Below are positions 6,326-32,247 of a DNA stretch of 40,615 nucleotides, piece by piece; positions within the stretch are counted from its first letter, which is position 1, and every line of letters begins with the position of its first letter. The notes beneath the pieces are model-generated. The model saw only the letters and a program-made list of their open reading frames with translations. It made no database searches and had not been told where the DNA came from. Position numbers and translations under genes: made by a program. The DNA comes from an uncultured Bacilli bacterium (GTDB lineage: Bacteria > Bacillota_I > Bacilli_A > RF39 > UBA660): the NCBI GenBank assembly GCA_944331805.1, contig CALVIS010000004.1, forward strand, positions 1-40,615. The letters are read 5' to 3'.

Positions 6326-8119
6326 ATGCAAAAATATATACATTTAGTATGGTTTGGGGGAAAACCATATACAAAATTAACTAAGAAATGTATTAAGAGT
6401 TGGAAGAAATATCTTCCAGATTTTGAAATTATTGAATGGAATGAAAATAATGTAGATTTAAATGAATGTCCATTTATTAAAGAAGCTTATGAGAATAAAA
6501 AGTGGGCTTTTGTGGCTGATTATGTTAGGACAAAAGCTATATATGAGATGGGTGGTATTTATTTAGATACTGATATGATGATTACTAAAAATATAGATTT
6601 CTTGCTTGATAAAGAGACATTTCTTGGTGTTGAAGATTCTATGATGGTAAATGCTGCTGTTTGGGGAGCATCAAAACCTAAAACCTATTTTGCTAAAAGA
6701 ATGTTAGATTATTATAGAAGTTTAGAACATTTTGATACTTATGATTTATATCAAATATCTATTCCAAGAATAATTACAAAGATTTTGGATGAATTTGATT
6801 TTGATCCTACAAAAAATGAGATTCAAGTATTGCATAAGAATATATATGTATATCCAAGAGAGTATTTTTATCCATTATCTTTTAATTTTAAAAATAATAA
6901 GTTTACTGAGAATACTTGTATGATTCACTATTTTGATGCTACATGGATTTCTAAGTATGAACAGATAGAGATGAAAATGGTAAGGAAGTTTGGGGCTAAA
7001 AATACAGCTCGTATTTTAAAAGTATACCGTTTTACAAAAAGAAATGCTAAGCGCTGTATTAAGGCATGTTTATTTCCTGTAGTTTTATATAGAAGATATA
7101 AAAGAAAAATTAGTTCTAAATATCTTGAAAATTTAAGTAATGCTTTAGAAGATATATCTAAAATTAAAGCTGACTATTTGGTTATGCATAATCCTGAGTG
7201 GCTAGGTGTTACTAGTGCAACAATTGAACTTTTTGATAGTAGGGTTAGATGTGGTGAATTATTAAGAGATAAAGATGTTAGAAAAGTGGGAGAAGCAATT
7301 TTAGAAAGCAAAGTTAAACAAGTAGTATTTAGTGCTATGTGTATAGGTTGGAAAGAACTTGCTATATATTTAAAAGATGAAAATCCTAATATAAAAATAA
7401 AAGTATTTTGGCATGGTTCTAATTCACAAGTATCAGAGCCATACGGTTGGAAAAGAAATATTGAAATTATTGAACTTCATAAAGAAGGAATTATTGATGT
7501 TTTTGCAACTTGTAAAGAAAGTATTATTCCTTTCTATGAACATGAAGGATATAAAACAACTCTTATTTTAAATAATGTTATTTTACCTAAAAAGATTAAA
7601 GCAAATCCTCCAAAAGATATTGTTAGGATTGGTATATATGCTGCTAAGTGTGATGATTGGCGTAAAAATATGTTTGCTCAAATTGCAAGTGCTACTTTAA
7701 TTCCTAATGCTGTTATTGATATGGTACCATTAAATGCAGAAGCTAAAAAGTTTGCAAATGATTTGGGTATAAAATTAGAAGGGTTAGATAAACCTATTCC
7801 AAGAGATGAATTGCTTGAAAGAATGAGTAAAAACACAATTAATTTGTATGTTACTTACTCAGAATGTGCACCTATGTTACCAATTGAAAGCTTTGAGGTA
7901 GGTGTTCCTTGTATTTCTGGTAATAATCATCATTACTTTAAAAATACTGAATTAAAAGAGTATATCGTTTTAAACAATGAAGAAAATCCAGTTTTAATTG
8001 CTAAACAAATAAAGAAGTGTTTAGATAATAAAGATAAAGTTATGAAGTGGTATAAAGACTTTAAAAAAGAAAATGATAAGAAAAGTAAAGAAAGTGTTAA
8101 ACACTTTCTAGATATGTAG
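6326..8119 (+). CDS. Two-domain glycosyltransferase: GT32-like plus second transferase domain
   Basis: The N-terminal ~230 residues are a GT32-type sugar transferase: start YIHLVWFGGKPYTK, FVADYVRTKAIYEMGGIYLDTDMM with the DXD motif at D81/D83. A basic linker (~230-260) leads to a second domain (~265-597) that resembles a GT-B-like transferase: VVFSAMCIGWKELAIYL, KVFWHGSNSQ, and ECAPMLPIESFEVGVPCISG near the C-terminus. That second domain is clearly related to the whole of the next gene's product. The two-domain layout suggests two successive sugar additions. It follows the exporter ATPase after 8 bases. Sugars are unknown. Confidence 0.75.
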   Translation: MQKYIHLVWFGGKPYTKLTKKCIKSWKKYLPDFEIIEWNENNVDLNECPFIKEAYENKKWAFVADYVRTKAIYEMGGIYLDTDMMITKNIDFLLDKETFLGVEDSMMVNAAVWGASKPKTYFAKRMLDYYRSLEHFDTYDLYQISIPRIITKILDEFDFDPTKNEIQVLHKNIYVYPREYFYPLSFNFKNNKFTENTCMIHYFDATWISKYEQIEMKMVRKFGAKNTARILKVYRFTKRNAKRCIKACLFPVVLYRRYKRKISSKYLENLSNALEDISKIKADYLVMHNPEWLGVTSATIELFDSRVRCGELLRDKDVRKVGEAILESKVKQVVFSAMCIGWKELAIYLKDENPNIKIKVFWHGSNSQVSEPYGWKRNIEIIELHKEGIIDVFATCKESIIPFYEHEGYKTTLILNNVILPKKIKANPPKDIVRIGIYAAKCDDWRKNMFAQIASATLIPNAVIDMVPLNAEAKKFANDLGIKLEGLDKPIPRDELLERMSKNTINLYVTYSECAPMLPIESFEVGVPCISGNNHHYFKNTELKEYIVLNNEENPVLIAKQIKKCLDNKDKVMKWYKDFKKENDKKSKESVKHFLDM

Positions 8120-18804: not shown

Positions 18805-19998
18805 ATGTTAAAACGGGAAGTTTATTTATCAAGAATAAGAGGCTTTTATGATTCTGATTTAGTAAAAATACTCGTTGGAATTAGAAGATGTGGCAAATCT
18901 GTAATACTTAATCAAATAGTTGATGAAATAAAAGAAAAAGGTATTGAAGATGACCATATTATATATGTTAACTTTGAACTTGTAGAATATGAAGAATTAC
19001 AGGACTATAGAAAGTTAAATAAATATATTAAAGATAATATTAAAGATGATAAAATTTATTATATATTTTTAGACGAAATACAAAGAGTTGAAAAGTTTGA
19101 AACGGTTGTAAACTCACTACGTGCATCTCTTTCTAATATAAGTATATTTATAACTGGTTCTAATAGTAAGCTTTTATCTAATGAACTTTCTACAGTTTTA
19201 TCTGGTAGATATGTTCTGTTTAATATTTATCCTTTAAGTTACAAAGAATTTACTGAACTATCATTAAAAAATCCTAGAAGTGAAGAAACATTTTGGAATT
19301 TTGTAAAATGGGGAGGACTTCCCAATAGAGTTCAGTTTACTGATGAAGTCAATATAAAAGATTATCTTCATAGTGTGTTTGATTCAATTATTTTAAGAGA
19401 TGTAGTAGAACGGTTGGGGCTTAAAGATATAGTTTTGTTTAACCTATTATTACAATATGTTGTTGATACAACAGGAAGAGAATTTTCAGCAGATAATGTT
19501 ATAAAATATTTAAAAAATGAAGGAAGGAGTATTTCTACTGAGACTTTATATATTTATTTAGATGCTTTATGTAAAGCTTTAATAATTAATAAAATTTATA
19601 GATATGATATTCATGGTAAGGCAATATTAAAAACCCTAAATAAATATTATATGACTGATTTAGGAATAGCTCAGATAAAGAATAATAACTTTGAGATAAA
19701 TAAAAGTTTTGCTATTGAGAATGTTGTATATAATGAATTATTAGAAAGAGGATATGATGTTTATATAGGAAAAACTAAAAAAGGGGAAATAGACTTTATT
19801 GCAACTAAAACAGATGAGAAGATTTATATTCAAGTCACTTATCTATTAGATAGTGAAAAAGTGATTGAAAGAGAGTTTGGAGCTTTTGAAGGATTAAATG
19901 ATGATATACCTAAATATATTCTTTCTTTAGATAAAGAAAATTTATCAAGAGATGGGATTATACATAAGAATATAATAGAATGGTTATTAGAAAAATAA
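18805..19998 (+). CDS. AAA ATPase of the AAA_14/DUF4143 family (copy 1)
   Basis: 397 residues. Walker A GIRRCGKS (25-32), Walker B IYYIFLDEIQ, sensor-like ITGSNSKLLSNELSTVLSGRY, then YPLSYKEFTEL and GGLPNRVQ typical of the family. A helical region follows and a C-terminal DUF4143 part with KYYMTDLGIAQ and NVVYNELLERGYDVYIGKTKKGEIDFI. This last part looks like a PD-(D/E)XK nuclease fold, but the strand where E-x-K is expected reads IQVTY, so nuclease activity is doubtful. The family is widespread in anaerobes and its role is unknown. It stands alone behind its own promoter and palindrome. Confidence 0.85.
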   Translation: MLKREVYLSRIRGFYDSDLVKILVGIRRCGKSVILNQIVDEIKEKGIEDDHIIYVNFELVEYEELQDYRKLNKYIKDNIKDDKIYYIFLDEIQRVEKFETVVNSLRASLSNISIFITGSNSKLLSNELSTVLSGRYVLFNIYPLSYKEFTELSLKNPRSEETFWNFVKWGGLPNRVQFTDEVNIKDYLHSVFDSIILRDVVERLGLKDIVLFNLLLQYVVDTTGREFSADNVIKYLKNEGRSISTETLYIYLDALCKALIINKIYRYDIHGKAILKTLNKYYMTDLGIAQIKNNNFEINKSFAIENVVYNELLERGYDVYIGKTKKGEIDFIATKTDEKIYIQVTYLLDSEKVIEREFGAFEGLNDDIPKYILSLDKENLSRDGIIHKNIIEWLLEK

Positions 19999-20007
19999 AA
20001 CTAACTC

Positions 20008-20036
20008 TAGACAAATAAATTAATACATGATATACT
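20008..20036 (+). promoter_or_regulatory. Promoter of the second DUF4143 ATPase gene
   Basis: TAGACA (20008-20013), 17-nt spacer, TATACT (20031-20036); expected transcription start near 20043. Confidence 0.6.
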
Positions 20037-20037
20037 G

Positions 20038-20075
20038 ATTACGAAAAATAAGCCAAAACGGCAAAAATTCGTAAT
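20038..20075 (+). promoter_or_regulatory. Hairpin in the leader directly before the ribosome binding site
   Basis: ATTACGAA (20038-20045) pairs with TTCGTAAT (20068-20075); the loop holds a small GCC/GGC inner pair. GGAGG (20076-20080) begins at the very next base after the stem. It could be an operator at the transcription start or an RNA element acting on translation. Confidence 0.45.
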
Positions 20076-20084
20076 GGAGGCAAT

Positions 20085-21326
20085 ATGGAAATAAAAAGAG
20101 ATTATTATTTAAAAAAATTAATAAGTAAAAAACATAATCATTTAATAAAAATTGTTACTGGTATAAGGAGATGTGGTAAATCTTATTTGTTAGATCCATT
20201 ATTTACTAATTATTTAAAAGATAATGGTGTTGATAATGAACATATAATTAAATTAGAACTTGATAGAGAAATAAATAGAGAATATTTAGATTCAAAAAAA
20301 TTAGATGAGTATGTTAGATCAAAAATTAAAGATAATGATATGTATTATATTATTTTAGATGAAATACAGCGTGTAGAGGGTTTTGAATTTGTTTTAAATG
20401 ATTTTCTATATGAAAAGAATATGGATGTTTATGTAACAGGGAGTAATTCTAAATTTCTATCTAGTGATATAATAACAGAATTTAGAGGTAGAGGCGATGA
20501 AATTAGAGTTTATCCTCTTTCTTTTAGTGAGTTATGTTCTGCCTATGATGGTGATATTTCTTCTGCTTGGAAAGATTATATAACATATGGAGGTCTACCA
20601 CTAGTATTTTTTATAGATACTGAAGAAGAAAAAGTTAGTTATCTTAATAATCAAAAAGATAATGTTTATCTTAACGATGTAGTTGAGAGATACAAAATTA
20701 GTAATGATAAGGAATTAAAAGAACTTGCAATAATGTTATCTTCAGGTATTGGTTCACTTACAAATCCTTTAAAATTATATAATACTTTTAAAAGCAAAAA
20801 TACAAATACTTCTATTACTGATAAAACTATATATAATTATTTAAATTATTTAGAAGATGCTTTTCTAATAGAAAAGGCTTTAAGGTATGATATAAAAGGT
20901 AAAAAATATATAGAAACACCCTATAAATACTATTTTACAGATATTGGAATCAGGAATGCTTTTATTGGTTTTAGGCAAATAGAAGAGTCACATATTATGG
21001 AAAATATAATATATATAGAACTTAAAAGAAGAGGATATAATGTAGATGTTGGGGTTGTTGAGATAAGAGAAAAAAATAATAGAAAAAAGATAGAAATAGA
21101 CTTTGTTATTAATAAAGGATATGATAGATATTATATTCAATCTGCATTAAATATTGATGATGATGAAAAAAAAGAACAAGAGTTACGGCCTCTTGTTAAT
21201 GTTGATGACTTTTTCAAAAGGATTATTATTGTTGGTAAAGATATTCCTAGGTATAAAAATGATCAAGGAATACTTATAATGGGAATTTATGATTTCTTAT
21301 TAAATGATAATAGTTTAGATTATTAA
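20085..21326 (+). CDS. AAA ATPase of the AAA_14/DUF4143 family (copy 2)
   Basis: 413 residues, same layout as the gene before it: Walker A GIRRCGKS (26-33), Walker B MYYIILDEIQRVEGF, VTGSNSKFLSSDI, YPLSFSELC, GGLPLVFF, then KYYFTDIGIRNAF and NIIYIELKRRGYNVDVGVV. The C-terminal nuclease-like strand pair is KIEIDFVIN then YYIQSALN, so again the E-x-K residues are missing. The two proteins share motifs but differ along most of their length, so this is not a recent duplication. It has its own promoter, leader hairpin and terminator. Confidence 0.85.
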   Translation: MEIKRDYYLKKLISKKHNHLIKIVTGIRRCGKSYLLDPLFTNYLKDNGVDNEHIIKLELDREINREYLDSKKLDEYVRSKIKDNDMYYIILDEIQRVEGFEFVLNDFLYEKNMDVYVTGSNSKFLSSDIITEFRGRGDEIRVYPLSFSELCSAYDGDISSAWKDYITYGGLPLVFFIDTEEEKVSYLNNQKDNVYLNDVVERYKISNDKELKELAIMLSSGIGSLTNPLKLYNTFKSKNTNTSITDKTIYNYLNYLEDAFLIEKALRYDIKGKKYIETPYKYYFTDIGIRNAFIGFRQIEESHIMENIIYIELKRRGYNVDVGVVEIREKNNRKKIEIDFVINKGYDRYYIQSALNIDDDEKKEQELRPLVNVDDFFKRIIIVGKDIPRYKNDQGILIMGIYDFLLNDNSLDY

Positions 21327-23275: not shown

Positions 23276-25042
23276 ATGAAATATGGTGGTAAAGCTAATT
23301 CCTTATTATATTTAGCTAGTAATAATATTTTAGTACCTAAATTTTTTATTATAAGTAAAGATGACTATATAATGTTTTTGAAAGCTAATAAAATTTATAC
23401 AACTATAAGAGATTTAAGTTTAGAAAAGAAATATCAAAGCATTAAAGAACTAATTATGAAACAGGATATAAATAAAGAATTAGAAGTCAAAATAGATAGA
23501 GAATTACCATTACTAAATGGTACTAAATTTGCAGTTAGATCTTCTTCTCTTGAGGAAGATGGAACAACTAAGTCTTATGCAGGACAATTTGAATCTTTTT
23601 TAAATGTAGATAAAGAAGATATATTTAATAATATAAAAAAATGTTGGTGTTCTCTTTATAATAATAATGTTATTGATTATAGTAGTGATTTTGATTTATA
23701 TGGTATGAATGTAATAATACAAACTATGATATTACCAGATTGTTCAGGAGTTATATTTACAATAGATCCTACTAGTGATACTAATAATTATAGTGTTGTT
23801 GAAATAGTAGAGGGATTATGTGAAAAGTTAGTTTCAGGAAAAGTTACACCTACTAAGTATTTAATTAGAAAAGAAACAAAAAAAATAGACTTTACTGAAG
23901 GGTCTATTAAGTTAAGAAATAATACAGTTAATAATATAATGGATGAAGCTTTAAAAATAGAGAAGTTATATAGTTGTCCAATGGATATAGAGTATGCAAT
24001 AAAGGATAATAAATGTTATATTCTTCAAGCTCGTCCTATAACAGCAGTTACTCCTTTACCTAAACCATTTACTTTATCTATTACGAGGCAAAAATCTATT
24101 ATAGATATAGAAATATATTATAAAGGAGAATATGAAGGAATTAAAAGACTAACTAGAAATTTATACTATTTTAAGCCTTTATTTGTTTATAATAAAATAG
24201 ATAATGTCGTAGATGTATATTATAATAATGTTGATTTAGAAGAACATCCAGGGCCTATGTATTATTACTTAGATAAAGACTATGCTAAAACAGAATCTAT
24301 GTATAATTTAGTATTAGAAGATATTAATTATTTAAATAATGTTATTGATAATAATTTATATATTGATTATAAAAAGTATATCGCAAAATTAATTGATATA
24401 TATCCATTTACTAGTTTAGGACAAATAGCAGGTAAATTTAAAAATGTAAGTCCAAGAATAAAAGAAATACTTATTGAATTTAGAGAAAAGTATGATTATA
24501 TTATTTATAAAGCTGTTGATTATATACTATTAAAAAATAAAGAGTATCATGATATAGATTTTATAACTTTAGATGAACTTATGTCTAATAAAATCCCAGA
24601 TAAAGATACTATAGAAAAAAGAAAAAAAGGCTATATTTATTATAATGGTAATTTATATACTTCTGATAATTATGATGCTTTTTTTAAAGAACATAACATC
24701 TATTTAGAAGAAGTAAATATTAATGATTTAAAAGGGCAGATAACATATCCAATAAATGATAATATTAAAGGAAAAGTATCTAAAGTATTTAATGATACTG
24801 ATTTAAGAAAATTTAAAGAAGGAGATATACTAGTAACTCCTATGACAACTCCTAAATATATGGACATTATAAAAAAAGCAAAGGCAATAATTACTGATGA
24901 AGGTGGTGTTTTATCTCATGCTGCTATAATTTCAAGAGAGTTAAAAGTTCCTTGTGTAGTAGGATGTAAGAAGGCAACTAAAGTTTTAAAAAATGGAGAT
25001 TTAATTGAAATAAATAAAAGAGGAGAAATCAAGTTATTATAA
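23276..25042 (+). CDS. PEP-synthase-like dikinase (ATP-binding plus swivelling His domain)
   Basis: 588 residues. The N-terminal ~260 are the pyruvate-phosphate-dikinase/PEP-synthase ATP-grasp part: GGKANSLLYL, FAVRSSSLEEDGTTKSYAGQFESF, CSGVIFTIDPTS, and YILQARPIT closing it. The last ~80 are the phosphohistidine domain, TDEGGVLSHAAII with His548. The C-terminal TIM barrel that binds PEP/pyruvate is absent. Domain order (ATP domain, a middle part, His domain) is that of rifampin phosphotransferase, but the middle region is only ~230 residues and not the large drug-binding part, so the total is far below the ~870 of those enzymes. The acceptor is unknown. Its 3' end overlaps the end of the convergent pilus ATPase by 6 bases. 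Confidence 0.8.
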   Translation: MKYGGKANSLLYLASNNILVPKFFIISKDDYIMFLKANKIYTTIRDLSLEKKYQSIKELIMKQDINKELEVKIDRELPLLNGTKFAVRSSSLEEDGTTKSYAGQFESFLNVDKEDIFNNIKKCWCSLYNNNVIDYSSDFDLYGMNVIIQTMILPDCSGVIFTIDPTSDTNNYSVVEIVEGLCEKLVSGKVTPTKYLIRKETKKIDFTEGSIKLRNNTVNNIMDEALKIEKLYSCPMDIEYAIKDNKCYILQARPITAVTPLPKPFTLSITRQKSIIDIEIYYKGEYEGIKRLTRNLYYFKPLFVYNKIDNVVDVYYNNVDLEEHPGPMYYYLDKDYAKTESMYNLVLEDINYLNNVIDNNLYIDYKKYIAKLIDIYPFTSLGQIAGKFKNVSPRIKEILIEFREKYDYIIYKAVDYILLKNKEYHDIDFITLDELMSNKIPDKDTIEKRKKGYIYYNGNLYTSDNYDAFFKEHNIYLEEVNINDLKGQITYPINDNIKGKVSKVFNDTDLRKFKEGDILVTPMTTPKYMDIIKKAKAIITDEGGVLSHAAIISRELKVPCVVGCKKATKVLKNGDLIEINKRGEIKLL

Positions 25043-25058
25043 AATTTCATCCTCTTTT
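25016..25058. terminator. Bidirectional terminator inside the overlapping gene ends
   Basis: AAAAGAGGAGAAAT (25016-25029) pairs with ATTTC, bulged A, TCCTCTTTT (25044-25058); loop of 14 bases contains both stop codons. T-rich tracts flank it on each strand. Confidence 0.7.
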
Positions 25059-26356
25059 TCTTTATTTTCAATTTCAATAACTTTATTTTCTGTTTCTTCG
25101 TGCTTTTTTTCAATGTTATTGTTTTCATTATATTTAATACCTCTAATTTTACAGTAAATATCTAAGTCATCATCAACATCAATTATTTTGTATATTTCAT
25201 CAAATGTTGTAGAACCATCTAATATTTTTAATAGTCCATCTTGAAGCATGGTAATAACATCTGATTTGTAGACTAATTTATTTAAATCATCCTTTTCTAA
25301 GTTTTCTTCATTTAAAGCATTTCTAATTTCATCATTAATCATTAATACCTCTTGAATAGCAATACGTCCACGATAACCTTTATTACATTTATCACATCCA
25401 TTAGGATTAGCATTATATATTTCATTAACATCTTTATTTAAAGCTAGTTTAAATACTTTTTTCTGATATGGAGTAGTTTTTTCTTTTATACGACAATGTG
25501 GACATACCATTTTGGCAAGTTTTTGAGAAATAATACCTGATAGAGCACTTGATAACAAATATCTTTCTACATTCATATCAAGTAATCTTTCAATAGTACT
25601 TAAAGAGTTATTAGTATGGATTGTAGATAATACTAAGTGTCCTGTAATAGAAGCACGAACAGCAATTTTAGCAGTTTCACTATCACGAATTTCACCAATA
25701 AGGATAACGTTTGGATCTTGTCTTAAGATAGATCTTAAAACAGTGGCAAAATCAAGTCCAATCTCACTATTAACTTGAACTTGGTTTAACCCTTCTAGGT
25801 TCATTTCTATTGGATCTTCTACAGTTATAATATTAGTTTCTTTCTTATTTAATACTTGTAGAATAGAGTAAACAGTAGTACTTTTACCACTACCAGTCGC
25901 TCCAGTTATTAGAATAATACCATTAGGTTCAGCGATCATCTTTTTTAGTTTTTTGAAGTTATCATCATTAAAGCCAAGGGATTCTATTCCTTCAAGACTT
26001 CTAGTATAGTCAAGAATACGAATAACACACTTTTCACCTTCATTAGTAGGTAGGGTAGAGACACGAGTTTCTAAGTTTATGCCTTTAATTGTTCCTTTAA
26101 TAGAACCATCTTGAGGTAGTCTACTTTCAGTAATATTCATATTAGCGATAAGTTTTATTCTCGTTATTAGGTTTCTTTCGTAAATTTTTGGTATTTCTGT
26201 ATAATCTCTTAAATCACCATCTATTCTAAACCTTACCATTAAAGAATTTTCTCTTGGATCAAAATGTATGTCGCTAGCACCATCTTTTGATGCTTTTACT
26301 ATTATATCGTCTACTACATTAACAATAGGTGTTTTTGTTAAATCATATGTTACCAA
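25037..26356 (-). CDS. Type IV pilus / type II secretion assembly ATPase (PilB/GspE family)
   Basis: Hexameric motor that powers pilin polymerisation. Motifs in order: DGASDIHFDPRENSLMVRFRIDG, Walker A GATGSGKST (about 152-160), the Asp box around NIITVEDPIE, Walker B region NVILIGEIRD, the His box GHLVLSTIHTN, and a tetracysteine zinc site (CPHC and CDKC). At ~440 residues it lacks the N-terminal T2SSE_N domain of full PilB but is longer than ComGA. A C-terminal Glu/Lys/Asn-rich tail is unusual. I choose the TTG at 26356, nine bases behind AGGGG; the TTG at 26365 touches that site directly. It is divergent from two prepilin genes; no inner-membrane PilC or prepilin peptidase is in the window. 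Confidence 0.88.
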   Translation of the reverse strand: MVTYDLTKTPIVNVVDDIIVKASKDGASDIHFDPRENSLMVRFRIDGDLRDYTEIPKIYERNLITRIKLIANMNITESRLPQDGSIKGTIKGINLETRVSTLPTNEGEKCVIRILDYTRSLEGIESLGFNDDNFKKLKKMIAEPNGIILITGATGSGKSTTVYSILQVLNKKETNIITVEDPIEMNLEGLNQVQVNSEIGLDFATVLRSILRQDPNVILIGEIRDSETAKIAVRASITGHLVLSTIHTNNSLSTIERLLDMNVERYLLSSALSGIISQKLAKMVCPHCRIKEKTTPYQKKVFKLALNKDVNEIYNANPNGCDKCNKGYRGRIAIQEVLMINDEIRNALNEENLEKDDLNKLVYKSDVITMLQDGLLKILDGSTTFDEIYKIIDVDDDLDIYCKIRGIKYNENNNIEKKHEETENKVIEIENKEKEDEIL

Positions 26357-26369
26357 AAATATCAACCCC

Positions 26370-26441: not shown

Positions 26442-28310
26442 ATGAATGGAAAAAAAATATTAAATAATACAGGTTTTATATTAGTAGAAACTTTAATAGT
26501 TGGTGTTTTTATTATGGGTATTTTTTCATTACTTTATACTAACTTTTTCCCTATAATTGGAGAGTATGAAAGATACAAAGATTATGATACTGTAGAATCT
26601 ACTTATATAGCTCATTGGGGAAGGATGATTGCATTAAAAGGGTTACCAGAATCAGTTTATACAACGGCTAGTACTGATGGTTATGTTGATATTGGAAATT
26701 GTTCTTTATATAGTGATATTAATATGCAAAATTATTGTTCTGCTTTTATAAATACTAATAATATCTCTAAAATTTATTTAACCTCATATTCTACAGTAGC
26801 TTTTAAAAATTTTGTTAATGATAATACTAGCTTTAGTAGGAGTTTTAGAGAGTATATTGCTTATTTACCTACTTATAGTAAAAATACTAGTAAAACTCCT
26901 GAGACTGGATATTACAGAGTAATTGTTGAATACGTTTCAAATAATACATATAAATATGGTAATATAGAACTATTTAATGGAGAATCAACTCCTGAAGAGG
27001 ATGATACTGTATCAGAAGTTGTATTAGATCCTGGTTCTGATGGTAATATATATGATGATGGAGAGGATACCTTTATAACTGGAGAGGATCCTAATAATTA
27101 TATTTGGTATAGTGGAAAACTTTGGAGAGCTGTATCTGTAAATAATAGTGCTAAGACTACTAAATTAGTAACACAATGGAATATAACAGCTATACCATAT
27201 AATGATGAAAGTAATATTGTTTATGATGGCAGTCATATGGAAATGTGGTTAAATGATATAAGTACAGATGGTTTTTTAGGCAATTTAAGAAACTATGAGA
27301 ATTTTATAGTAACAGATGCTGAGTGGGATGCAACAGAAGATGGGGCAGAATTAGGAAGTATAACAAGACCTTCAGGAACAAAAGTAACAGGAGCGGTAGG
27401 ATTATTAAATATATATGAGTATCAATCAAGTTATCATGGAGGAAGTTATGAGACTGGATATTTAAATAATGGACTATATTGGTGGAGTTTAACACCATAT
27501 GATACAACAAATATAAGGATTATAAATGATAGTGGAGCTGTAATAGATGATGATCAGGCTGGCTCTTATGGTGTAAGACCATCAATAAATATAAAATCTG
27601 ATATAAAAATAGTAAGTGGAGAAGGAACTGAAGATAATCCCTATAGATTAGAAGGAGATAATGATAGTAATTTAACAGGGGAAAAATTAAATACAAGAAG
27701 TAGTGGTGAATATATTCAGTTTGGAGCAGGAGAAAATAATTTGTATAGAATAGTAAGTCATGAGACTGAGGGATTAACTAAGATAGTAAGTGCTGAACCA
27801 TTAAAAGTATCGGGACAATATAAGAAATTAGCTTTAGGAAATATGAACTATTCAGCTACAACGACAATGGGATTGTTTCTTAATGGAGAATATCTAAACA
27901 ACTATTTAACAGAAGAGAATAGAAATATGATAGAAGAAAATACAACATGGTATATAGGAATGATAGACAATGGGGATAATTATAGATTAGGTAAGTATAC
28001 TGATATTAATATGACAGAATTAGTTCCAAATAGAGTAACAGTAAAAGTAGGATTATTAAGAACAGGTGAATTAATGTCAGGACAATTCGAAAGTTCTAAA
28101 ACTTTAAGAGAAGGTCCATCCTCTACTTATTGGACTTTAACTCAATACAATGCAACTACAATGCGTCGAGTTAATTATCTTGGTTATGGAAGTCATGGCT
28201 TTCATTCGGAAGCTTATGATATTCGTCCAACTTTAAATTTAAAATCTAATGTTATAATAACTGGAGGAGATGGAACAAAAAATAATCCATTTACATTAAG
28301 TTTAGAATAG
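26442..28310 (+). CDS. Large prepilin-like protein with two related C-terminal domains (DUF6273/FISUMP-like)
   Basis: 622 residues. The N-terminus is a class III/type IV prepilin signal: short basic leader, cleavage expected after Gly11 (TG|FILVE), Glu at mature position 5 (E16), then a hydrophobic helix to ~37. A pilin-like globular part runs to ~180, with an acidic linker to ~215. Two related domains follow, ~215-402 and ~413-621, each ending alike: WWSLTPYDTTNIRIIN ... YGVRPSINIKSD ... GEGTEDNPYRL and YWTLTQYNATTMRRVN ... YDIRPTLNLKSN ... GDGTKNNPFTL. Such domains occur on surface proteins of gut Bacillota. Pseudopilins are normally 120-250 residues, so this would sit as a large tip or minor subunit. 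The second half uses more A-ending codons than the first. Confidence 0.75.
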   Translation: MNGKKILNNTGFILVETLIVGVFIMGIFSLLYTNFFPIIGEYERYKDYDTVESTYIAHWGRMIALKGLPESVYTTASTDGYVDIGNCSLYSDINMQNYCSAFINTNNISKIYLTSYSTVAFKNFVNDNTSFSRSFREYIAYLPTYSKNTSKTPETGYYRVIVEYVSNNTYKYGNIELFNGESTPEEDDTVSEVVLDPGSDGNIYDDGEDTFITGEDPNNYIWYSGKLWRAVSVNNSAKTTKLVTQWNITAIPYNDESNIVYDGSHMEMWLNDISTDGFLGNLRNYENFIVTDAEWDATEDGAELGSITRPSGTKVTGAVGLLNIYEYQSSYHGGSYETGYLNNGLYWWSLTPYDTTNIRIINDSGAVIDDDQAGSYGVRPSINIKSDIKIVSGEGTEDNPYRLEGDNDSNLTGEKLNTRSSGEYIQFGAGENNLYRIVSHETEGLTKIVSAEPLKVSGQYKKLALGNMNYSATTTMGLFLNGEYLNNYLTEENRNMIEENTTWYIGMIDNGDNYRLGKYTDINMTELVPNRVTVKVGLLRTGELMSGQFESSKTLREGPSSTYWTLTQYNATTMRRVNYLGYGSHGFHSEAYDIRPTLNLKSNVIITGGDGTKNNPFTLSLE

Positions 28311-28327: not shown

Positions 28328-28834
28328 ATGTTTTTGAATAAAAAAGGTATAACATCAGTTGAGCTTTTAGTTTGTTTCATAATTATTTCAACTATTGTTG
28401 TTAGTATGTATAATTTAATATTAAATTATCGTAATAGAGAACAGATAGAAGAGATAAATAATGAAGTTATATCTTTTAGTAACAATTTACAAGAAACTAT
28501 TCAATCGGATTTAATTATGGGTCATTTGGTTAGTGTTAGTAATATTAGTAATGATGGATATAGTGCTACTTTTACTTTTGATAATCCTAATAGTTATACT
28601 ACAACACTTACTATTAAACCTAATGAAGGTATTATTAGTTATAGTAAGAATGGAGATACAATTGATTATGAAATACCTGGTATTGCAGATTTAATGTTAA
28701 GTCCTGATTCAAATATTGAATATATTTCTGCATCAAATGGGTATTTAAAAATTACAATAATTTTAACTCATCCAAATTTTGAAGATGAAACTTACTCTTT
28801 TATGATAAATTGTCCAGTTAATTATGTATATTAG
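28328..28834 (+). CDS. Prepilin-like minor pilin
   Basis: 168 residues. Prepilin signal MFLNKKG|ITSVELLVCF with cleavage expected after Gly7 and Glu at mature position 5 (E12), followed by a ~20-residue helix IIISTIVVSMYNLILNY and a mostly beta-rich globular part (YSATFTFDNPNSYTTTLTIKP, GYLKITIILTHPNF). Normal size for a ComGF/GspH-like minor pilin. It lies 17 bases behind the large prepilin and its 3' end overlaps the convergent ylbJ-like gene by 4 bases. Confidence 0.75.
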   Translation: MFLNKKGITSVELLVCFIIISTIVVSMYNLILNYRNREQIEEINNEVISFSNNLQETIQSDLIMGHLVSVSNISNDGYSATFTFDNPNSYTTTLTIKPNEGIISYSKNGDTIDYEIPGIADLMLSPDSNIEYISASNGYLKITIILTHPNFEDETYSFMINCPVNYVY

Positions 28835-30966: not shown

Positions 30967-32247
30967 ATGAGTTTAAGAGAGAAAGATTATAAAGAAAGAT
31001 TAATAGATAAAAAAATAGACCGTTATTTAGAAACTTTTGGAGCGATTTTAATTGAAGGACCTAAATGGTGTGGCAAGACTTGGACTGCTTTAAATCATGC
31101 AGAAAGTGCAACATATGTTACAGAAACGTCTACAAAAAGACTTGCTTTAATTAATCCTAAGAATATTTTTTCAGATAAAAGACCTCAGTTGATAGATGAA
31201 TGGCAAATTGTCCCTTCTATTTGGGATTCAGTAAGACATGAATGTGATAGAGGAAAAGGGCCAGGAAATTTTATATTAACAGGTTCTACAACGTTAAAAA
31301 AAGAAATACAAGGAAAACAGGTGTACCATTCTGGAGCTGGTAGAATTGCAAGACTTAAAATGGAAACAATGAGTCTTTATGAATCTCTTGATTCAAGTGG
31401 TGTTGTTTCTATAACTGATATGTTAGAGAATAAGAATATTAATAAGAACACTGGAGAAGTAAAAATTAGAGAACTTGCTACTCTCTTGATAAGAGGAGGA
31501 TGGCCAGAAAGTTTAAAAGTAAAAAAAGAAAATTATCCTTTAATACCAAAGAGTTATATTGACTCAATATTAAATGTAGAACTAGATGAAGAAGAAAAAG
31601 TAAGGGATAAGAATAAAATGAGTATGTTATTAAAATCTTTAGCAAGAAATGAATCTACAATAGTAAGTAATAAAACTATTATAAAAGATATTGAGGAATA
31701 TGAGTCTGGTAATGATATATTATCTAGTAGAACTACACTTTTAGATTATTTAGATTTTCTTGAAAGGTTGCATTTAATTGAAAATCAAGAGTCATATAGT
31801 TCTAATTATCGTTCTCCTGAAAGAGTAGGTAAGTCAGTGAAAAGACATTTTGTTGATCCCTCTCTTGCTTGTTCTCTTTTAAATCTTAATGTTGATAAAT
31901 TAATAGGTGATTTAAATACATTTGGCTTTCTTTTTGAAGCTCTCGTTGAAAGAGATTTAAGAATTTATATGGATTACTTAGATGGAAAAATATATCATTT
32001 TAGAGATAATGTAACAGGTTTAGAAGTAGATACAATATTAGAGTTCGAAGATGGAGAATATGCTGCCGTTGAAATAAAACTAGGTTATAATGAAGTTGAT
32101 GATGCTATTAAAAATTTAAAAGAATTTTATAATAATATGGTAAAGAAACCTAAATTTATGTGTGTTATAGTTGGTGTTTTGGAAGCTGCTTATAAAGACC
32201 CTGATACTTCTATTTATGTAGTACCAATAACAGCTTTAAAACCATAG
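30967..32247 (+). CDS. AAA ATPase of the AAA_14/DUF4143 family (copy 3, nuclease-like motif kept)
   Basis: 426 residues. Walker A GPKWCGKT (31-38), Walker B PQLIDEWQ with the family's DEWQ, sensor-like FILTGSTT, RIARLKMETMSLYES, IRGGWPESL, and the DUF4143 part with KRHFVDPSLACSLL and GFLFEALVERDLRIYM. The C-terminus reads TGLEVDTILEF then YAAVEIKLG, which keeps the D...E-x-K arrangement of PD-(D/E)XK nucleases, unlike the other two copies. It belongs to a different branch from the pair at 18805 and 20085. The gene is preceded by 23-bp repeats and followed after 13 bases by the phosphatase gene. Confidence 0.85.
   Translation: MSLREKDYKERLIDKKIDRYLETFGAILIEGPKWCGKTWTALNHAESATYVTETSTKRLALINPKNIFSDKRPQLIDEWQIVPSIWDSVRHECDRGKGPGNFILTGSTTLKKEIQGKQVYHSGAGRIARLKMETMSLYESLDSSGVVSITDMLENKNINKNTGEVKIRELATLLIRGGWPESLKVKKENYPLIPKSYIDSILNVELDEEEKVRDKNKMSMLLKSLARNESTIVSNKTIIKDIEEYESGNDILSSRTTLLDYLDFLERLHLIENQESYSSNYRSPERVGKSVKRHFVDPSLACSLLNLNVDKLIGDLNTFGFLFEALVERDLRIYMDYLDGKIYHFRDNVTGLEVDTILEFEDGEYAAVEIKLGYNEVDDAIKNLKEFYNNMVKKPKFMCVIVGVLEAAYKDPDTSIYVVPITALKP

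Follow-up and report, generated by a model that had tools for sequence, protein, structure and literature searches.

The window (the whole stretch of 40,615 nucleotides that was analyzed) encodes on its forward strand, at positions 26442 to 28310, a 622-amino-acid protein that is best read as a modular minor pilin. Its lectin-like head, probably placed at the tip of the pilus, would be a copy from a pool of cassettes that are targeted by diversity-generating retroelements (DGRs), and such cassettes would have been captured repeatedly. We give this reading a probability of about 0.7. Somewhat less firmly, we also favor the view that a type IV pilin of "Candidatus Onthousia" is a living DGR target, in which the cassette was captured repeatedly and both of its variable loops have been rewritten in some species. 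No report of a DGR-targeted type IV pilin was found in the literature searched.

A type IV prepilin fused to a tandem DUF6273 cassette

The open reading frame is intact and begins with ATG, closely preceded by AGAGGG, a plausible ribosome-binding site. Its parts and its two neighbors, each with the evidence for it, are as follows; a slash marks the prepilin cleavage site here and below.

25037 to 26365, minus strand: PilB/GspE-type assembly ATPase without the N-terminal domain, divergent from the pilin (T2SSE, E value of 7.8e-122)
26442 to 26474, plus strand: class III (prepilin) leader MNGKKILNNTG (sequence; kept in orthologs; peptidase on contig C31)
26475 to 26981, plus strand: pilin module, residues 12 to 180, a long N-terminal helix and a globular head (cassette-free orthologs; AF2)
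26982 to 27092, plus strand: linker, residues 181 to 217, the fusion junction, which varies among fused species (comparison of fused and unfused orthologs)
27093 to 27641, plus strand: cassette domain 1, DUF6273, residues 218 to 400 (Pfam PF19789; alignment)
27495 to 27578, plus strand: domain 1 loop at the DGR variable-region position, PYDTTNIRIINDSGAVIDDDQAGSYGVR (codon alignment with paralogs and template repeats)
27702 to 28307, plus strand: cassette domain 2, DUF6273, with a C-type-lectin-like fold, residues 421 to 622 (VIA-align; second Pfam stretch)
28140 to 28226, plus strand: domain 2 loop at the DGR variable-region position, TQYNATTMRRVNYLGYGSHGFHSEAYDIR (codon alignment with paralogs and template repeats)
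28328 to 28834, plus strand: second prepilin, 168 residues, G/ITSVELL, weakly ComGE-like (conserved downstream neighbor of the fused pilin)

The N-terminus is a perfect match to a type IV prepilin site, G11/F12...E16, with glutamate at +5 (MNGKKILNNTG/FILVE, positions 26442 to 26490). The orthologs keep this site, and the AF2 model (58 rows) shows a single N-terminal helix at residues 11 to 45 and a pLDDT that is mostly above 90 for residues ~50 to 180. The prepilin signal G/FILVE that an earlier, sequence-only reading had reported is therefore genuine, and cleavage after G11 by the prepilin peptidase would be expected. The Pfam N_methyl model gave no score on this N-terminus, and comparison of the pilin-module model with known structures yielded, amid unrelated rows, a pseudopilus chain (9a1f_T) that matched weakly, with a Z score of 3.7. 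The same reading had called the size of the protein exceptional for a minor pilin, and this view had to be given up. Modular pilins form a class already recognized in the literature, with more than 1,200 proteins in 264 architectures (PMC8179133). The window protein fits their published description, and its size thus has precedents; LamG, LRR, or glycine-rich modules are also found on relatives of the pilin in the family. All of the genomes compared are MAGs, and the assembly to which the window belongs is 69% complete. A one-off assembly artifact was considered as the source of the fusion and dropped, as the fusion is present in six species in unbroken frames, one of them on a 23-kb contig of a MAG.

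The Pfam family DUF6273 (PF19789) scored 35.2 bits on the protein against a gathering cutoff of 23.5. The two domains are ~25% identical to each other and have in common the pattern W-x-LT ... RP ... N-x-K-S ... G-x-GT-x-x-NP, and the earlier claim of two related C-terminal domains stands on these three observations. A chance pairing is excluded because dozens of genes in the genus carry the same pair. Of the two domains for which structure prediction had been proposed, one gave a model that could be compared with known structures. Domain 2, modeled with a pLDDT of only ~60, has a C-type-lectin-like fold; its best match by VIA-align was 9qa6 (Z score of 11.7 over 181 residues), and it also matched many chains with the C-type-lectin fold at Z scores of 4 to 6, among them Lcl, Bd2740, LLT1, LOX-1, CD94, and CD23 (Z scores of 4.3 to 5.7). 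Domain 1, modeled alone with AF2, reached a pLDDT of 46, and this model was set aside. A Foldseek search of the full model against the PDB gave 9qa6 as the sole significant match, while the pantothenate synthetases that made up the bulk of the remaining matches were taken as noise, and a sequence search of the PDB with the domain profile gave no match. We count the proposal of a pair of surface-binding modules as supported, and we infer that the pair binds a ligand.

The pilin is conserved in the genus and its cassette is not

The comparison set consisted of 35 congener genomes of "Candidatus Onthousia," Bacilli that are uncultured gut bacteria. An orthologous pilin with conservation of the N-terminal 180 residues was found in 34 of these. 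The cassette is absent from the pilin in 28 congeners, nearly all of which have minor pilins of 180 to 190 amino acids, and it is fused to the pilin in six scattered species, namely, that of the window's genome and those represented by genomes G012, G028, G001, G007, and G027. The cassette-free orthologs occupy the same locus as the fused pilin, and the pilin module stands alone there. In the loci read, the order PilB, pilin, second pilin, Gate protein was constant.

Homologs of the pilin across the wider family are for the most part short, with some of them joined to LamG/ConA-like lectin, BspA-type LRR, DUF6273, or glycine-rich (ALK/LTK-type) modules, and the pilin is thus a recurrent platform for modules. 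Two loci from other genera of the family (L240:48-2610 and L239:725-3499) each encode two consecutive pilins, both with large modules. The modules at these loci are of the glycine-rich ALK/LTK type, and the second pilin of L240 carries DUF6273.

The cassette belongs to a dispersed family on many anchors

The window's genome contains five further genes with the same tandem pair, located on TasA/camelysin-like or similar anchors. Among the congeners, ~45 genes that could be parsed share the cassette, which starts near "YDDGVDTFITGEDPNNYIWYSGKLW" and follows at least five kinds of N-terminus. The prepilin N-terminus was found only in the pilin-locus genes among these. Across the family the scaffold is conserved, and the segment from W-x-LTPY to G-V-R-P is hypervariable in both domains.

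A stretch of ~340 bp in the G007 pilin cassette, within which loop 1 lies, matches a second cassette of that genome without any difference, and its flanks are 65 to 85% identical. To judge from this alignment, part of the G007 pilin cassette has recently been gene converted, and the cassettes therefore also exchange by recombination.

Three further loci bear on the family. In G012, a dispersed tandem-DUF6273 gene (L176:7729-9642) lies beside PilB, on the side opposite from the fused pilin, and it is possible that it was a local source for capture. A cassette gene of G022 (L199:1913-3502) encodes a signal peptide and ends, beyond the cassette and a Pro-rich linker, in a C-terminal membrane segment, which suggests that its product is anchored at the surface in a different mode. 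An open frame of ~611 amino acids on contig C27 of the window's genome was considered as a complete member of the family and rejected, since the large C27 open reading frame that was aligned lacks such domains and is part of a Tad-like locus.

Repeated capture or a single ancient fusion

In a tree of PilB and the pilin, the species carrying the fusion were scattered, requiring six changes, and their union in one clade was rejected (AU test, P = 0.016). The pilin cassettes likewise did not form one clade in a cassette tree with the loops masked (AU test, P = 0.015). On these topologies, the cassette has apparently been captured repeatedly by the pilin. A single ancient fusion that was then lost many times is an unlikely alternative, though one with an appreciable chance of being correct. 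It could account for the linker that is common to G007 and G028, and the species tree, in which few branches are well supported, leaves it some room. However, the two AU tests reject one clade both for the carriers and for the cassettes (P about 0.015), the linkers otherwise differ between the fused species, and gene conversion can also replace cassettes.

The assembly machine is short and ComG-like

The genes recovered describe a short, ComG-like machine consisting of PilB, PilC, a prepilin peptidase, and a second prepilin, with ComEC present and PilT not found, as had been guessed from the window sequence alone. The alignment of PilB to the GspE profile begins at profile position 106. PilC and the prepilin peptidase (PilD), which the earlier reading had proposed to seek elsewhere in the genome, are encoded by adjacent genes on contig C31, and the peptidase has intact motifs (two CxxC pairs, the conserved Asp, and GGGD). 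A search of six genomes found, above the cutoff, only one PilB-like and one Tad-type (CpaF-like) ATPase, and hence no PilT. ComEC was present in all seven genomes tested, and a search for PilM gave only weak, mostly subthreshold matches. The two pilins of the window show weak similarity to the ComGD/ComGE profiles, and because their scores are far below the curated cutoffs, we have not filed them as ComGD/ComGE. Identity with the competence minor pilin ComGD was rejected in this way, with profile NF040982 scoring 13.7 bits on the window pilin (18.1 bits on an unfused ortholog) against a cutoff of 70.

It could be argued that this is a DNA-uptake (Com) pilus and that the modules bind DNA or merely alter uptake, with no host or bacterial ligand. 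ComEC, the weak ComGD/ComGE similarity, the ComGA-like PilB, and the failure to find PilT all agree with such a role. However, C-type-lectin-like modules of the DGR type are binders of protein or glycan elsewhere, LamG/ConA-lectin or LRR modules are found on relatives of the pilin, and the pilin of most species manages without a cassette, so that we regard this explanation as improbable.

The same small genome holds a second filament system, a Tad-like pilus locus on contig C27 (L034:13546-17296) that by inspection encodes a SAF-type protein, a CpaF-like ATPase, and TadB/TadC-like proteins. Contig C32 (L027:3711-5801) encodes an oversized prepilin of 696 amino acids with the motif GFTMVELL, an N_methyl score above the cutoff, and weak Ig-like matches; this is a second modular pilin in the window's genome.

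The cassette family is the target of a retroelement in the genus

Two DGR cassettes are present in the window's genome, on contigs C17 and C10, and the mismatches between template and target are adenine-only. The C17 DGR (L032:5255-9170) is complete, with a reverse transcriptase (RT), an accessory open reading frame, and a template near position 7080. This template differs from its targets on C17 and C7 (L026:2537-4150) by 10 and 14 mismatches per 60 bp, all at template A, and relatives of the target proteins with the same scaffold are encoded on C22, C32, and C36. In the C10 DGR (L033:3992-8618), a bAvd gene is clearly present, and the C-terminal domain of the target is FGE-sulfatase-like. 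Neither the C17 nor the C10 template matches the window's cassettes, and no direct match to the window loops was found.

A third class of DGR, found in the congeners, comprises a 316-amino-acid RT, two small accessory open reading frames of 112/114 amino acids, the template SSSNVRNVNNNGNTNNNSPSNANGAR, and an adjacent tandem-DUF6273 target. A query with this template was matched in 26 of the 35 genomes, the weaker matches listed being variable regions. A variable-region pattern that was fixed only at mostly nonadenine positions was matched in 27 of the 35, and the reversed control was matched in none. By these sequence criteria, the cassette family is the target of a resident DGR in the genus. 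Neither an RT of this third class nor a matching template was found in the 69%-complete assembly of the window's genome.

An adenine signature on pilin-borne loops

Both loops of the G007 pilin fit the variable-region pattern with zero mismatches. Compared with each other, the loops of domains 1 and 2 differ at 12 of 25 template-A sites and at 1 of 47 other sites (P = 3.5e-6), with a template that was taken from G012 as the best fitting of ~20, a choice which for the window gives a P value of 0.17. The two domains are 0.81 identical in the loop versus 0.52 in the remainder, their third codon positions agree at 30 of 34 sites in the loop and at 64 of 144 outside it, and the G+C content of the loop is 0.54 to 0.57, against 0.26 in the pilin part of the same gene. 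The same template procedure gave strong signals for most of the dispersed cassettes, which serve as positive controls. The comparison of the two domains left out G000_C6 and G011_C12, in which the domain 2 motif was missed or cut by the contig end, and loops of unequal length. A matching template of its own was not found in the 87%-complete G007 assembly, and the sole template of the class found there (C12) has a deletion and fits the pilin loops less well. The G007 pilin loops carry the adenine-specific DGR signature, and the pilus of at least one species may then be able to vary its binding.

In the G028 pilin, the loops are homogenized (0.75 versus 0.51), with more non-A changes and a weak adenine signature. 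Neither adenine bias nor loop homogenization was found in the pilins of G001, G012, G027, and the window. The two window loops differ from each other at 16 of 27 template-A sites and at 20 of 45 other sites, which is no significant adenine bias, and comparison with ~20 congener templates also revealed none. Other cassettes of the window's genome likewise differ from the templates at many non-A sites.

The window pilin could itself be an active DGR target if the RT and the template lay in the unassembled third of the genome. It belongs to the same cassette family, the RT and template are common in the congeners, the assembly is 69% complete, and one of the two other DGRs in the genome has adenine-only variable regions in two proteins. 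However, no template fits either window loop without numerous non-A mismatches (27 and 19 of 45 sites with the best template), and the two loops have not been homogenized with each other; we consider an active target here decidedly unlikely. In the window species, the binding head is most likely fixed or evolving ordinarily, the DGR having been lost or not assembled.

A proposed rewritable binding head on a pilus

In the reading that we prefer, that of a modular minor pilin with a captured cassette, the prepilin would be cleaved after G11 and then built into a filament by PilB and PilC. Because of its bulk, the fused pilin would probably be a tip or near-tip subunit of a short Com-like or type IV filament, where the two C-type-lectin-like modules may form an adhesin head with both loops binding a protein or glycan ligand. 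The head would not be native to the pilin but copied from a cassette that recurs across the genomes of the genus on many membrane anchors and is exchanged by recombination. Repeated capture would place a rewritable binding site on the pilus, and retrohoming into the loops may be current. It is very improbable that the N-terminus serves as a mere membrane anchor and that this is a common type of surface protein, comparable to the paralogs on TasA/camelysin-like anchors, since plain anchors on the paralogous cassettes and the lack of an N_methyl score are outweighed by the perfect G/FxxxE site, the prepilin peptidase and PilC in the genome, the fixed place between PilB and the second prepilin across the genus, and the confident model of the pilin module. 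The sequence-only reading had itself raised a widespread domain pair together with a plain N-terminal anchor as an objection; the domain pair did prove common on other surface proteins of the genus, but the N-terminus is not a plain anchor.

Modular pilins have been described in Streptococcus sanguinis, in which PilB carries a vWA module and PilC a ConA-like lectin module (PMC8179133, PMC9934059). The window pilin resembles these in its class III leader, its pilin module, the bulky non-type IV pilus module past a short linker, its monoderm host, and its probable role as a tip adhesin. It is unlike them in that its module, a tandem DUF6273/C-type-lectin-like cassette, comes from a family that is dispersed and DGR targeted, and in that only some species of the genus have the fusion. 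DUF6273 is known as a DGR target with a C-type-lectin fold in phages, as in tentaclins and Faecalibacterium prophage targets (PMC10743442, PMC11792537). The cassettes of "Candidatus Onthousia" share the fold, the variable region near the C-terminus, and, in family members, adenine-specific variation, whereas their genes are apparently cellular and have tandem domains, two variable regions, and a junction to a prepilin, and the window copy is without the adenine signature.

As cited in PMC12632263, Macadangdang et al. (2024) described a DGR that diversifies the tip pilins of Bacteroides type V pili; within the scope of that citation, the likeness is that a DGR acts on a pilus tip subunit, and the difference is that those pilins are lipoprotein derived and unrelated to prepilin-peptidase-dependent pilins. 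A passage of PMC6642488 that cites earlier work mentions "putative pilin structures" among DUF1566 DGR targets. The best structural match of domain 2 is the N-terminal DUF6273 domain of the Thomasclavelia ramosa IgA peptidase (PDB 9qa6; PMC12402451), which is a secreted protease and no pilin. The ComG minor pilins (ComGD/ComGE) are small, have a ComGA/ComGB-type machine, and show weak profile similarity, but the window pilin scores far below their cutoffs and ComGD is without an extra module.

Two known ideas, the grafting of modules onto pilins and the hypervariation of lectin-like domains by retroelements, meet here in a single cellular system. If the system is active, directed mutation could alter the binding head of a contact filament, and this head could pass between the pilus and the other anchors at the surface. 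The genus provides a natural series, from no fusion through fusion with a fresh signature to fusion with old loops, along which the capture, use, and decay of a binding head can be traced in small-genome gut bacteria.

Elsewhere in the window, at 18805 to 21326 and 30967 to 32247, are three genes that by appearance resemble AAA ATPase/DUF4143-type proteins, which often occur in many copies in such genomes.
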